NCBI GenBank assembly: GCA_950295325.1
Contig: OX485807.1
Coordinates: 40,952,440-41,016,439, forward strand
DNA from: Polytrichum commune
Lineage: Eukaryota > Streptophyta > Polytrichopsida > Polytrichales > Polytrichaceae
DNA length: 64,000 nt
Direction of reading: 5' to 3'
Position numbers and translations under genes: made by a program. This document shows, one piece after another, positions 34,551 to 53,105 of this stretch. The notes beneath the pieces were generated by a model. The model did not search any database and was not told the DNA's origin. It saw only the letters and a program-made list of their open reading frames with translations. Each line of letters starts with the position of its first letter. Position 1 is the first letter of the stretch.

Positions 34551-37500
34551 TGGCTTGCACTCCAGCTCGGATTTCGCAATAAGGGGAAGAAGGGCCCAGC
34601 CATTGAAAGTCCCGGCTATTATTAACTACACATTGTCATATGTGGCCCACTACTATCTATAACGTGACCCACTTCTCCTATATACGAGGGTCAAATAGCA
34701 TGAGGGGGTGATGGAGGCCCAATGAATCCTCACATGGCATGATGGAAGTTGTTTATGTATATGTGAGCATATCGGGAGTAAAAGCGATGCAATTAAGGTA
34801 CACAATGACGGACCCTTATTTAGGGGCAAATAAGGAATCTCCGGGCATATATTCACCTCTTCCCGAGGTAGTTCTTATGAAAATTCGTCCAATTTGTCGT
34901 ATGATGGGCCATTGGTAGGCCGGGGCTAGCTAGACACCCCACCCTTTTTGATCTAGGCCCCACCAACATGATTCAAGGTGGAAAACGCAGTCAATTATAT
35001 TGTGTCTTGGATTTTGTGTCTTTACAAGTAATTGATTCTAGAATCAACATAAGAGACCCCAAAGTATTCTACATGAACTCATGTGGAGTAACGTTGTTCG
35101 AGGCCCGACTCGAAGAGGTGGGTGTATAGCCATGGCTGCACGTGGCATGATGAAAATTGTGTCTATGAGAGAAGTGTTCATGGAGTTGCCATACAAAACT
35201 TGTGCCTAAGATGGTGGGGGATTATCAAAGGTTAGCCACCGCTTCTCTTTGAATTGATTTTCATGTCCAACCCAAACTTGACCTTGTAGATATTTCATAG
35301 AGACCTTCATACATGTGTTAGCTGTCGAATCTAGAATGAAATATAATTAGAGCATGTAGTCCAATCTCATCGTAACAAATGTAGTATTTAATGCCATTCC
35401 TAACTACAACCCTTGCCACATACCGCTCAAATAAACTTTCAACTAAGAAGAGTGGCTTTGTAAGGTCCACAAACTTTAAGCACATATTCTCTGAGATTTT
35501 AAACCATATCCTACTTTGAGATGGCAAAAAACCGACATAGGAATTGGCAAGCGATCTATCACTACACTGATTATCCCAATAAGTGTGTGTTGCTATTATG
35601 AATTACATAGTGCAATAATGTCTTCCTCACAAGTTCGATTTTTACTAACAAAAGTTCAATAGGTTGTTTGGACGTCGTAGAGTATAAATGACTTTGCTTG
35701 GTAGAATATTACATTCTCATCAAATAGTTATAGCATTGAATAACTCTGCATAGTAACACACACTAATTGGGTGCTTTTCATAATTTGATTTGGAACACTT
35801 TCAAACATAACATGACAAAAGAGATGGAACAAGAAGATAATTATACTCATGGGTCTCCACTTGAGTAACTCAATGCTATAACTATTTGAGTAACTCTGTT
35901 AGATAGTTATAGCATTAAAAAATAACTCAAATAACATTAAAAAATAAGGTCTAACATATTCATTGTAGATAAATTCTCCAAAAAAGTTCATATAATATAG
36001 GGGGTTCTAAAATAATGAAACATCTTTACATGTAAAATACCATCACATATAATGGCCTCATTTATCTAGTCAGTATATGTAAAATAGAGAGGAAACAATT
36101 ACTAGGGGTAGTGGGTCTAGGATAGGGTATGTGCCAGTGGATGAGAGGAGGATTTTTTAATTTTTTAATTTATTTTTTGGTAAGAAGAGAAATGTCCTTC
36201 ATGAAAAAAAATGTCACTTACATAACCCAAAAAAAAGGTGTAAGAGACAAAATGCAATGTAAGAAAAAAATTAACAATAGTTGGGCTCCGAGAAAGAAAA
36301 AAATGGGGTATAGTGAAACAAAATTGTTTGCTTGGGGTATAATGAAAAAAGGAAATATAAGTAAAATAGGGTATTTTTAAATGATTCCCAAAATTATAAT
36401 TATTGACATGGTGTATTAAAATACAAGCATTTACCTTTATTTTGAAAAATATCATATCTTGTAATCTTTTCTACAAGGTAAATAGCCCCCCAATAAATAA
36501 GTCATGAGCGCACATGTATGCAAAATATAAGAGGGAGTGAACCCCCCGAGAGATTCCACCTGGTGAAATCTACATTTTCACTAGAATTTGATGGGCAAGC
36601 GGCCTACATGGAACCCGATCCTTATCTAGTTGTTTTTTCTTTTCTTTGACATGTTGTTCAACTTCTACCCATGAGGTTTACATAACAAAGCTTGTGTGTT
36701 GGATTGGCAAATCTATGATAAAACATCATCAATTCTCATATTTAAAATTGGACCTATCTTGATTTAATTATGGTTATCGGAAGTGCATGTTTGTTGATTT
36801 TTTAGGTGAGTACATGGTTCCTCTAAATTATGTTCAATATTGAATGTGCAGTAGTTAATAATATTTGAAGACATATGCCAGTCTCTTTAAACACATGTCT
36901 TTATGGTGTTTGTTCTTGAATCTTCACCTAACAACAAACTAATCAAACACAGGTGTCCACTCCTGAAAATCAATCAAAAAAACATCCGTATACCTCAAAT
37001 TAAGTTGCGAGGAACATTTTTGGATGCTTACAACTTTCCTCCACACAAGTTTAGTACATATGCCATGAACAATTGCCCAAGGATGGTTTTAGGGTCGCTT
37101 TACACATGGGCTAGGATTCGTGACCATGAAAGTTTAAGAGCCTTTGAAAACGATCCAAAGGTTGTAACATAGTATTTGTATTCCTACTTCTCGACCAATC
37201 ACATAGAGTACACAAACCTATTTCTGTTAACTTAAGCGATTTCACATAAGCGTAGTACATGTGTGATATGTGGGTGACTTTCCATAGGTTTGCAAATTGA
37301 TATCACAAAATTTAAGAAAAAAAACACAATTTCTCTCCAGGTTTAAAATTGTTTAAAATTTCAAATGCAAGATTCTCTCCCACCCATAATCGCAACATAG
37401 GTCAACCTATTTCCGACAACTGGGAGATGAAAACTTGAGTACAATTAGTGCCCTTTTCAAGGAACCTAAATCCATGCTCTTTTAACTCACGTTTTCCGTC

Positions 37501-49039: not shown

Positions 49040-52000
49040 TTAATCCTCCAGCTTATCAGATGAGATCGAAATTCCCGTTGGAGTCCACTTTTCGGAGGAA
49101 TTGGATTGCGCCGTCGTGTCCGAGGGAGACACAGATTGCTCGCTAACCAAAGGTTGCGGATGAAACCCCGAGCGGACAGCCGAGAGCACATCCTCTGAAC
49201 CAAAATAGGCCGTGTTCGGAAGACTCGGCAATGCTGTTGTGTCCCCCGAAATGAATACCTGGTTAATGAGCCGCATTGTGGGCCTGGACATTGGATTCGG
49301 AAGGCAACACAAGAGGCCCATTTTGAGCACCATGGTCTTTTGCTCGTTCTCGCTCAAAATCTCCTCCTCGATACGCCGACTGAGTGCCAGCGTGTAGTCC
49401 AATTCCTCCTGGTCTTTCGGCAAGCTCCTGAAGGTATGTGGGTGTTATTCGGTTACTTCTCTTAATTGGACCCTCTAAATATTGATTGGTTTGCGATTCG
49501 GCGAGGATTAAAAAACAGACGCCATGTAGACAATTGCTTAAGAGGATAGGATGACTTCTTCAAATGTTATCAACTACTCCACACTCAATAGTGAACACAA
49601 TTTGGGAGGACATATGTATTCAGTTAAGAAATCAACAAACATGCACTTCTGATAACCATAACTACATTAGGAAAAGTCCAAATTTCAATCCGAATGTTTG
49701 TTGATGCCTCATTGTAAATTTGCTAATGTAACACACGTTTCATTGCGTAAATCTAATCGGAAAAAGTTTGAGAACATAAAAAAACAAACCGCATAACACC
49801 CACATACCTGATACTTTGGCTACCCGATGGAGATTTCCCGAAACGTAGTTTCTGCACATTTCCAGCTTCAAGCGCCGGGTCGACGACTCTCAACAATTCG
49901 CCGGCTTCGTAAGCACGCCATACTCTGTTCAACAACACCACATCATCCGGCTCGATGTCGCCGATTGATTGCACCGGTTGTCTCCCAGACACCACTTCCA
50001 ACATCAAGACGCCAAAACTGTACACGTCGGATTCCTTTGTGGCTTTTCCTGTGTAAGGCATCTCAGGTGCCATGTACCCAAGCGTGCCGGCCATCAATGT
50101 GGTCTTGTCCACCTGCCAAGAAACTCTTATTTATAATAAGCAAGGGCGTGCAAATCATCATCATAAATGCCTTGCGGTAAATATTTCTAATAACACCGCA
50201 TCCATGTCATTGTTTATTCACCATTGCTTATCTTTGTACTCATGATACCGGGTCAACTCCATTAGAGCTCATTTTGTTAACGATCTTTTATTAGTTCATG
50301 TGTTTCACATCTAACGTTCAGGTTATCCATACTCTCAAACTTGTACATGGAAGAACTTTTTGAACATTCTGTGTGCTGGGGCTCTCCGAGTAACTCTTGA
50401 TTGCAAGCCCAATTCAATATTCTTGCTTTTATTTTTTGAAGGGAAATGAACATGGATTTGTTGAGGTTTTGGTCTAAATATCGCTGGAAGAATATAGGGG
50501 AGATTAAGTCATCCTGGTTATCATTCATCCCTCCAAATGCAATTAAAAAAAAAACCTTATTGCAGCTGTATGATGCACATATGCGTTCTGTGATCCATTT
50601 ATTTTTAATCTATCTAGTACATTCCATTGCCCAGCCACATAATATCCTTCTCAACGCTCATCTAAATGTCGTGAGAAATAAGATAGCATTGGATTTACAT
50701 TTCTCATGTAGTCTCACACTACACAAATTAAATCTTAAGGACGTAAGGCACCTTCACTCACATTAATCGAGTTTAGAAAGAAAAATTAGAATTATACAAA
50801 ATTTGCCACCCACCTTCTGGTGGTCGATCAGCCTCGCGAGCCCAAAATCGCCCAAATGCGCATTGAACTCCGCGTCGAGCATGACGTTGCTGGATTTGAT
50901 GTCTCGGTGGAGCACGCATTGCTGCCACTCGTCGTGCAAGTATGCGAGTGCGGCCGCGACGCCCTGCAGGATGGAGAATCGAAGTTCCCACGAAAGCGGT
51001 TCTCGGGGCATGGACCGGGCCATACTCCGTTTCAACGATTTTGATGACCCTCCGAGGCTCGAGGATTTCCCGTGGAGCCACTGGTCGAGGCTTCCATTGG
51101 GCATGAAATCGTAGACGAGCAGCAGTTTCCCGTCCTCGTGGCACCAACCCTGCAGCTGGATCAAGTTGCGGTGCCGGATCTGGCTTATGCTCGTTGCCTC
51201 CGCGACGAACCCTTCCTCCCCGTCCGCCGACTCGTGCCGAATCCGTTTCACCGCAATTAGGTCGCCCGACGGCCGCAAAACCCCTTTATATACCGACCCC
51301 ATCCCGCCAGTTCCCACTCGCTCGCTCTCGGCAAAGTTTTTCGTCGCGACGCTGAGCTCCCGGAACGTGAACCTGCGTGGCCCAAGGAGATGGTGGTTGA
51401 TGAAACTCGATCTACCTTGCCGCCTCCGACGCCTCCTCCAGTAGCCAGAAACAATTAATCCCAAAACAACTAAAACAACTACACCCAACGCTCCACATAT
51501 ACCCGCAACAAGAGTGACATTCGTCCCACTCGCAGCCGACCCGGATAACGGCGACTTTAAGACCTTCAAGTAGGCGGTTCGGTTTCCAACTTGTTGAGGG
51601 TAACCCCCATTGAATAGCGGCGAGGATTTGATGAAACACGTATACCCACGTCGCCAGTAAGTCACTCCTGCGCACCCGCACTCGTCTAAACACCGTTGAG
51701 TGCACGAGGTCTCGTCGGTCAAGTATCCCGGGTACATGCGGTCGGCGAACGGGTAGTCGATGTCGCCCACCTTCACCATCTGAAATAAGCTCTTGTTCAC
51801 GCTGCATTGATTTGCGGGGATTTCATTCACCTGCTTGCATCCCTTCATCATATTGGTTTCGTCGATTGCGGTGAACTGCGGGGGACATGTGCAGGAGGCG
51901 CTCGCGGCTGGCGCGAATGGATTGTAACTACACACACCAAAAGGGCCGCACTCCGCGAGGATATTACACGAGTTCGTATCGTTGATCCAAATCCCTTCGT

Positions 52001-53105
52001 CGTTCCAAGCACTCGCTCCCGAACCTGCAGCCCAACTGTACATTCTTAGCCCGCCATCCCAGTCCAGGGTTACGCGCCGGAACACGCCGGATGCTTGGAT
52101 TGACGTGTTGGTGATCACGATATTGTTGGTGCTTCCTAAGTAGAAGCTGCCCAAGTTCGCATCAAGAATCGCATAAGTCGCACCCGTGGTGTCGTTCTGG
52201 TAAGGATAGAGTGTGATGCCTCCTTGCGTAACGACTTCGCTGCTCCATGAGGATCGGTTCCAGTTCGAGATGCTGTCGCCGGTCCAACTCAGCGTGAAAT
52301 TGTTTTGGCCATTCACGTTCACCCAGCCTGCGCGGTAGTAGCCCTCGGACCAGTCATTCGTGGTTTTCCACGAGACGAGCGAGACGCCCGTGTTGTTGAC
52401 GGAAAACTTCTGGTCAGGCAACAAGGTGTCCGTCGGCGTGTCGAAGCTCTGCCAGACGATGGTGGTGTTTGTCGCGTCCATGAGCACCAAATTCCCCGTG
52501 TCTCGTAACTCCAAACTCGTGGCATTAATCTAATGATATACACATAAAGAAAGTAAAACCCGAGCTCAGAAAATTAATGGAAGCACCTTGGGTACACCTA
52601 ATTAATGCTCACGACGGAAGTGAATAAACGAACTCACTCCCCTTGCGCAGGAATAATGCATGAAGATAGTTAAGTTACTCACTCCGTTGTAATTGACAGA
52701 TTGCCACACCAGTTTTTGAGTAGAAACTGCAGGGTCGAAGAGCTGGAGGACGCCACCCTGGGAATTAAGTTGCAAGTAAGCCGAGCTGCTCAATGTGGTA
52801 TTCCGGCCAGCCAATATCCACACAATCGTTCGGACGGAGCTCGGCAACTGTGCGTACCATATCGCGACCCCGTAACGATCGGACGAGCCGGGCGCAAGGT
52901 AGAAACCGAATTCGAAGATACCGCCGGGGGAGGTTAGGTTAGGCCCGCCACTCGTTTGGATCACACCCGACAAGCCCAGGGTACTCGCACCTTCAACAAC
53001 TAGTAGTGTTCCACGTTGCGCGGCCAGATACAGTACGGCTAGGAGAACTAGAATTCGCAATTGCGCAACTACCCTCGGTGCAACACCAAACCTGGCGATC
53101 CTCAT
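49040..53105 (-). CDS. G-type (S-domain, bulb-lectin) receptor-like serine/threonine kinase, 4 exons
   Basis: Predicted exons on the minus strand are 53105-52683, 52529-50814, 50112-49808 and 49427-49040. All introns are GT-AG, the frame is kept throughout, and the product is 943 aa. Residues 1-39 form a signal peptide. An S-locus-type bulb lectin domain follows at about 40-165 (LELRDTGNLVL, WQSFDTPTDT), then an SLG region with an EGF-like Cys cluster at about 327-360 and a PAN-like Cys-rich segment at about 383-440. One membrane span lies at about 479-505, followed by an Arg-rich stop-transfer stretch. The kinase domain starts near 540: glycine loop GTGGMG at 547-552, Lys569 in AVKRI, helix-C Glu585, HRD 682-684, DFG 702-704 and an APE motif in exon 3. 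It is therefore an RD kinase with all key residues, predicted at the plasma membrane with the lectin side outside. Ligand and pathway cannot be told from sequence. The start chosen is the only Met that precedes the signal peptide. Intron 3 is a MITE copy (separate entry). Family confidence is high. The position of intron 3 is inferred from frame and splice signals. Confidence 0.9.
49432..49808 (-). mobile_element. MITE (family C) forming intron 3 of the receptor kinase gene
   Basis: The predicted intron (49428-49807) coincides with an inverted-repeat element. The ends are AGGTATGTGGGTGTTAT at 49432 and its exact reverse complement ending at 49809. The interior aligns by eye with copies at 8558-8927, 28046-28423 and 13061-13409 through shared stretches such as AATAGTGAACACAAT and GAACATAAA. 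A direct repeat CCTGA lies at 49427-49431 and 49807-49811, and the shorter reading TGA is also possible. In gene sense the donor (AG|GTATGT) falls at one end of the element, and the acceptor (TTCAG|G) uses the duplicated target bases. Confidence 0.75.

Follow-up and report, generated by a model that had tools for sequence, protein, structure and literature searches.

Can a transposon that enters the coding sequence of a gene become an intron whose removal leaves the message as it was? The question is raised by a G-type lectin receptor-like kinase gene on the minus strand of a 64,000-nucleotide stretch of Polytrichum commune contig OX485807.1 (the window, meaning the whole stretch analysed), where a MITE coincides with the third predicted intron. 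The reading that we consider highly probable is that the MITE inserted into uninterrupted kinase coding sequence and became a scarlessly spliced intron.

The kinase gene and its predicted introns

Pfam analysis of the kinase gene revealed B_lectin, S_locus_glycop, and kinase domains that passed the cut-offs, and PAN_1 and PAN_2 fell slightly short; the transmembrane stretch is our own reading. Exon 1, counted from the first ATG, lies at 52690..53105 (lower limit approximate) and is followed by exon 2 at 50814..52529 (upper limit approximate), which covers the lectin part, the putative transmembrane stretch, the N-lobe, and the catalytic loop. Exon 3 (49808..50112) runs from the kinase activation segment into a variable linker, and exon 4 (49040..49427), with a reading frame open through 129 codons, encodes the last kinase subdomain and the C-terminal tail, including the stop. 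Intron 2 occupies 50113..50813, with boundaries taken from the sequence, and intron 3 is predicted at 49428..49807 (GT-AG, 380 bp, phase 2). Introns 1 and 2 were rejected as additional MITE introns: intron 1 had no other match, and intron 2 contained one stretch with two partial genome matches at 69–71% identity, perhaps an old repeat.

Anatomy of the MITE and its family

The MITE copy spans 378 bp (49432..49809) and carries at both ends an exact 17-bp terminal inverted repeat, AGGTATGTGGGTGTTAT (17/17). It is short, has terminal inverted repeats, and belongs to a family with many dispersed copies, all features by which MITEs are recognized. The perfect ends were dropped as a signal of selection, since the counting motif had been derived from the kinase copy itself and since, in one of the two ends, position 8 is C in the consensus of 26 other family copies. 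A genome search gave 4523 first-look candidates, a number that suggests a large MITE family; 40 places were scored, including the kinase copy, and the other 39 showed 77–81% identity. Within the window, relatives at approximately 8.6, 13.1, and 28.0 kb matched the interior at 69–87% identity by piece. The exact 17-bp termini, the interior matches, and the end-to-end correspondence of intron and MITE reported in the preliminary description all held. A fourth window relative of the same family, absent from that description, lies on the minus strand at 36651-36946 (74% identity over approximately 300 bp). Elsewhere in the genome, loci L128 and L136-L139 (C5 43.96 Mb, C6 5.87-6.17 Mb) share a common CTTAAGAGGAAG behind a family-like 3' end and have no recognizable left end, as if the 3' end sat inside a larger repeat.

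Geometry of the predicted splice

Directly outside the MITE ends lie two copies of the dinucleotide GA (TC in gene sense), the left one on the acceptor side (49430..49431) and the right one on the exon 3 side (49810..49811). The present sequence in gene sense is GTATC|AGGTATGTGGG...CCCACATACCT|TCAGGAGC, and the junctions read GTATCAG|GTATGTGG and CCTTCAG|GAGC. The predicted intron, 49428-49807, thus runs GTATGT...CCTTCAG, and its 380 bp equal the 378 bp of the MITE plus one 2-bp duplication copy; its boundaries coincide with element and duplication, as expected of a transposon-derived spliceosomal intron. The donor AG|GTATGT, a near-consensus 5' splice site, lies wholly inside the MITE end, whereas the acceptor is composed of CCT from the element, the duplicated TC, and AG from unduplicated target beside the duplication. 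The earlier statement that the donor is supplied at the element's end was therefore correct, and the one that the acceptor AG comes from the duplicated target was not.

Before insertion, the target would have read GTA-TC-AGGAGC in gene sense. Removal of GT...AG yields GTATCAGGAGC, identical to what is obtained by deleting the element and one duplication copy, and the codons across the predicted junction are ATC AGG AGC, in frame. Because the intron equals the element plus one duplication copy, splicing would restore the old mRNA exactly and mask the insertion. We infer that transcripts are spliced at 49808/49427; the preliminary description placed the junction at these positions, where the sequence indeed offers a GT-AG, phase 2 intron, and its claim that the joined exons rebuild the presumed uninterrupted sequence and the kinase frame agrees with this geometry, provided that the predicted splicing occurs. 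Read-through ends in ...SQSIRYVGVMRFVFLCSQTFSD-stop within approximately 20 codons, as had also been reported. Pfam was dropped as a means of telling the two products apart, as their scores were alike (2.4e-43 spliced, 4.1e-43 read-through). The acceptor itself, CAGGAG (49424-49429, minus strand), is a NAGNAG-like tandem, in which use of the second AG would remove one residue in frame.

Target site duplication

Flanks were read at 27 of the 40 scored places, the kinase copy included: TA was present on both sides in 18 and on one side in eight, and the kinase copy had GA/GA. A second set comprised 42 loci with a left end matching at least 12/17, of which 18 had TA/TA, 17 had one TA, and six had differing non-TA pairs, leaving the kinase copy as the sole matching non-TA pair. 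From the matching pairs directly outside the MITE ends, the duplication was set at a fixed length of 2 bp, with TA as the family norm and GA in the kinase copy. The direct repeat CCTGA previously given as the duplication is present on both sides (49427-49431 and 49807-49811), but its true duplicated part is 2 bp (GA/TC), the CCT of the right-hand repeat being the MITE's own end and that of the left-hand repeat being target. For a Tc1/mariner-type assignment of the MITE, the TA duplication gives no more than a hint.

The non-TA duplication departs from the family norm and in this respect speaks against the main reading. Either a rare target choice or two changes could account for it; along the latter route, ATA in the exon would have become ATC, a synonymous change, and TAAG would have become TCAG, a better acceptor. 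The empty site may accordingly read GTATCAGGAGC (with TC) or GTATAAGGAGC (with TA). In an improbable variant of the same origin, the element was either inserted during repair of a break or was a trimmed one flanked by the 5-bp duplication TCAGG. Read in gene sense, TCAGG does flank the core on either side, and a matching non-TA pair was found in none of the other copies (0/26 in the first set, 0/41 in the second); however, both ends of the MITE are complete (17/17), with a repeat of the usual 2-bp length outside them. Sequence alone does not fully separate such an event from ordinary transposition.

Paralogues without the intron

A protein search yielded 12 loci that were cut out, two of which were the kinase gene itself; of the other ten, eight were examined (L019 and L020 were left out). 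None of the eight has an intron at this place, and each can be aligned across it in a single frame; one of them (L018) has no linker, and in another (L014) a stop occurs only close to the end. The tandem paralogue L021 (C5:41062700-41067300, approximately 60 kb away) has intron 2 at the codon where the kinase gene has it, but no intron at the MITE place. It also has one extra long intron, between the transmembrane stretch and the kinase, that is absent from the window gene.

These comparisons bear on whether an older intron at this position was replaced or invaded by the MITE. The kinase gene does have other introns, but the 380 bp (378 + 2) contain no leftover of another one, the duplication adjoins the element, and, because all eight paralogues examined are uninterrupted here, replacement or invasion of an old intron is very unlikely. 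An unrelated intron at the same position, which the preliminary description held would indicate such an invasion, was not found in any of these eight genes, all of them paralogues. The paralogues support insertion of the MITE into coding sequence. Little constraint is visible over the final 18 codons of exon 3 (dN/dS 0.97), and both the length and the sequence of the linker are variable; the empty site is therefore not alignable base by base, and its exact ancestral form is a reconstruction.

Age of the insertion and constraint on exon 4

Compared with the consensus of the 26 other copies, the kinase copy showed 53 substitutions (14.2%) and five indel events. All 27 copies lay 7.8–16.5% from the consensus, with the other 26 slightly favoured, being part of it. 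The dS between the tandem paralogues was 0.80 for exon 3 and 1.81, near saturation, for the conserved part of exon 4. Set against these values, a copy divergence of 14.2% makes the insertion look younger than the tandem gene duplication, on the assumption that all copies stem from a single source and have accumulated their differences since insertion at a neutral rate.

We then considered whether the MITE instead broke the gene, such that the insertion is spliced poorly or not at all, transcripts run only to the internal stop, and exon 4 is an undecayed remnant. In the conserved part of exon 4, dN/dS was 0.09, compared with 0.18 for exon 3, and comparison with six outgroups revealed no excess of unique residues (2–5 in the kinase gene, 2–4 in the paralogue). 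When exon 4 was simulated as non-coding since the insertion, at the element's own rates, it remained unbroken in 0.1% (whole exon) and 2.4% (first 71 codons) of cases. At about half the rates or age, the first 71 codons remained unbroken in 15%, so a young insertion could leave exon 4 intact by chance. A rough Poisson test for relaxed constraint behaved similarly, with P values of 0.0015–0.01 at full age and 0.08–0.25 at half age. The strength of the exon 4 evidence is thus tied to the dating, and half the age weakens it. Gene breakage also gains from the fact that splicing is here deduced from sequence only. Against it stand the divergence of the kinase copy, which is as great as that of the family, the open and conserved exon 4, and the canonical GT-AG falling exactly on element and target, and we regard it as unlikely. 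An exon 4 that is open and conserved despite a 14% diverged MITE favours long-standing splicing.

The history that we propose would begin with a non-autonomous DNA transposon, the 378-bp MITE of a TA-duplicating family, entering the kinase domain at its variable linker once the gene had split from its tandem paralogue. Its inverted-repeat end AG|GTATGT would have set a near-consensus 5' splice site at the MITE edge, and the 3' splice site would have been assembled from three pieces: ...ACATACCT at the far end, TC from the duplication, and AG from the adjoining target. Splicing would then remove the element with one duplication copy, giving an mRNA as before the insertion.

Search for further introns of the family

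The pattern AACACCCACATACCTNNAG gave 141 genome matches (54 and 87). Besides the kinase copy, 99 loci were fetched with approximately 200 bp of flank among the matches listed (100 of 141), and with two TTCAG places and five YAG|G places these made 106 loci, or 107 with the kinase copy, having AG in the scarless place. Outside this set are copies with a damaged 3' end, diverged copies, scar-leaving introns, other geometries, and 41 of the 141 AACACCCACATACCTNNAG matches, save those reached by other patterns.

A left end of at least 12/17 was present in 42 of the 107, 34 of which had GT at the donor place. In six of the 107 (the kinase copy, L070, L137-L139, and L143), the spliced frame stayed open for 100 bp or more to each side, and in the kinase copy only it did so for the full 200 bp (200/200). 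Among the 34 loci with left end and GT, only the kinase copy and L143 reached 100 bp to each side. L070 and L137-L139 were rejected as intron cases, with an unrecognizable left end (8/17 and 11/17) and AT at the donor place. L143 (C7:543974-544754) has GT at the donor place and TTTAG|G at its end, and its spliced frame is open for 155/200 nt; its left part contains a CT microsatellite, and its right side lies within a 205-aa open frame. The next in line, L072, is open for 87/183 nt. No relatives of L143 or L072 were found elsewhere in the genome, and we leave both undecided as second intron cases. L119 was rejected because its right side is a high-copy repeat (at least 150 scored matches), and at the four other exact CACCCACATACCTTCAG places (L078, L124, L140, and L141) no frame stayed open for 100 bp to each side. 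A Pfam scan of ten joint frames of other loci was uninformative, because the kinase control also gave no match.

The search for family copies as introns, which the preliminary description had called for genome-wide, gave one clear case, the kinase copy, and no second clear case among the 107 loci. Recurrence of one family as many introns, typical of introners, was not seen among the loci tested, and in this part of the family the MITE does not behave as an introner. It is rather unlikely that the family's inverted-repeat end AG|GTATGT acts in both orientations as a preloaded donor, making the MITE a latent land-plant intron maker with further introns among diverged copies that exact-end patterns could not list. 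If so, any exonic insertion right before AG could be masked as an intron.

Comparison with known systems

In maize, Giroux et al. reportedly described in 1994 an intron that arose de novo from Dissociation (Ds). Ds belongs to the hAT elements, whose duplication is 8 bp long. As in that case, a plant DNA transposon in an exon would have become an intron (spliced in Ds, predicted here); unlike Ds, the kinase MITE is of TA type and older, its paralogues are intron-less, and its predicted product is scarless.

Introners, as described in PMC9860276, bring their own 5' splice site, recruit the 3' site, and form families of 5 to over 2,000 copies. The kinase MITE resembles them as a non-autonomous transposon that brings the 5' site, takes the 3' site from the target, and would leave mRNA length unchanged, but introners make many introns per genome, whereas the MITE gives one clear case. 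The introner likeness drawn earlier therefore stands for the origin of the two splice sites and not, in the part tested, for recurrence across genes. That survey of 3,325 genomes found introners in no land plant; of the animal and land-plant groups, just two had them, and both were animals. The part of PMC12595863 considered here does not describe the formation of new introns. The AGGT proto-splice-site model (PMC3443670, section 7) likewise has a donor AG|GT, an acceptor AG|G, and an unchanged coding sequence; there, however, AGGT is the duplicated target, whereas here it is the element end and only the acceptor AG|G is target.

A table in the review PMC3443670 gives 35 introns that arose by transposon insertion, in Oryza, Drosophila, Oikopleura, and Zea, and the title of the maize Ds paper appears among its references. 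The case remains a land-plant example, but the notability claimed for it on that ground is weakened by the Zea and Oryza entries. Plant intron gain is poorly documented, and here the element, its ends, the duplication, an intron-less tandem paralogue, and a relative age can be read at one locus, where a TA-type MITE end presents a ready 5' splice site. The locus would exemplify an insertion neutralized by predicted splicing and kept, a natural case of how an intron may be born. By every feature testable in the sequence, the predicted kinase intron belongs with the single transposon-made introns.
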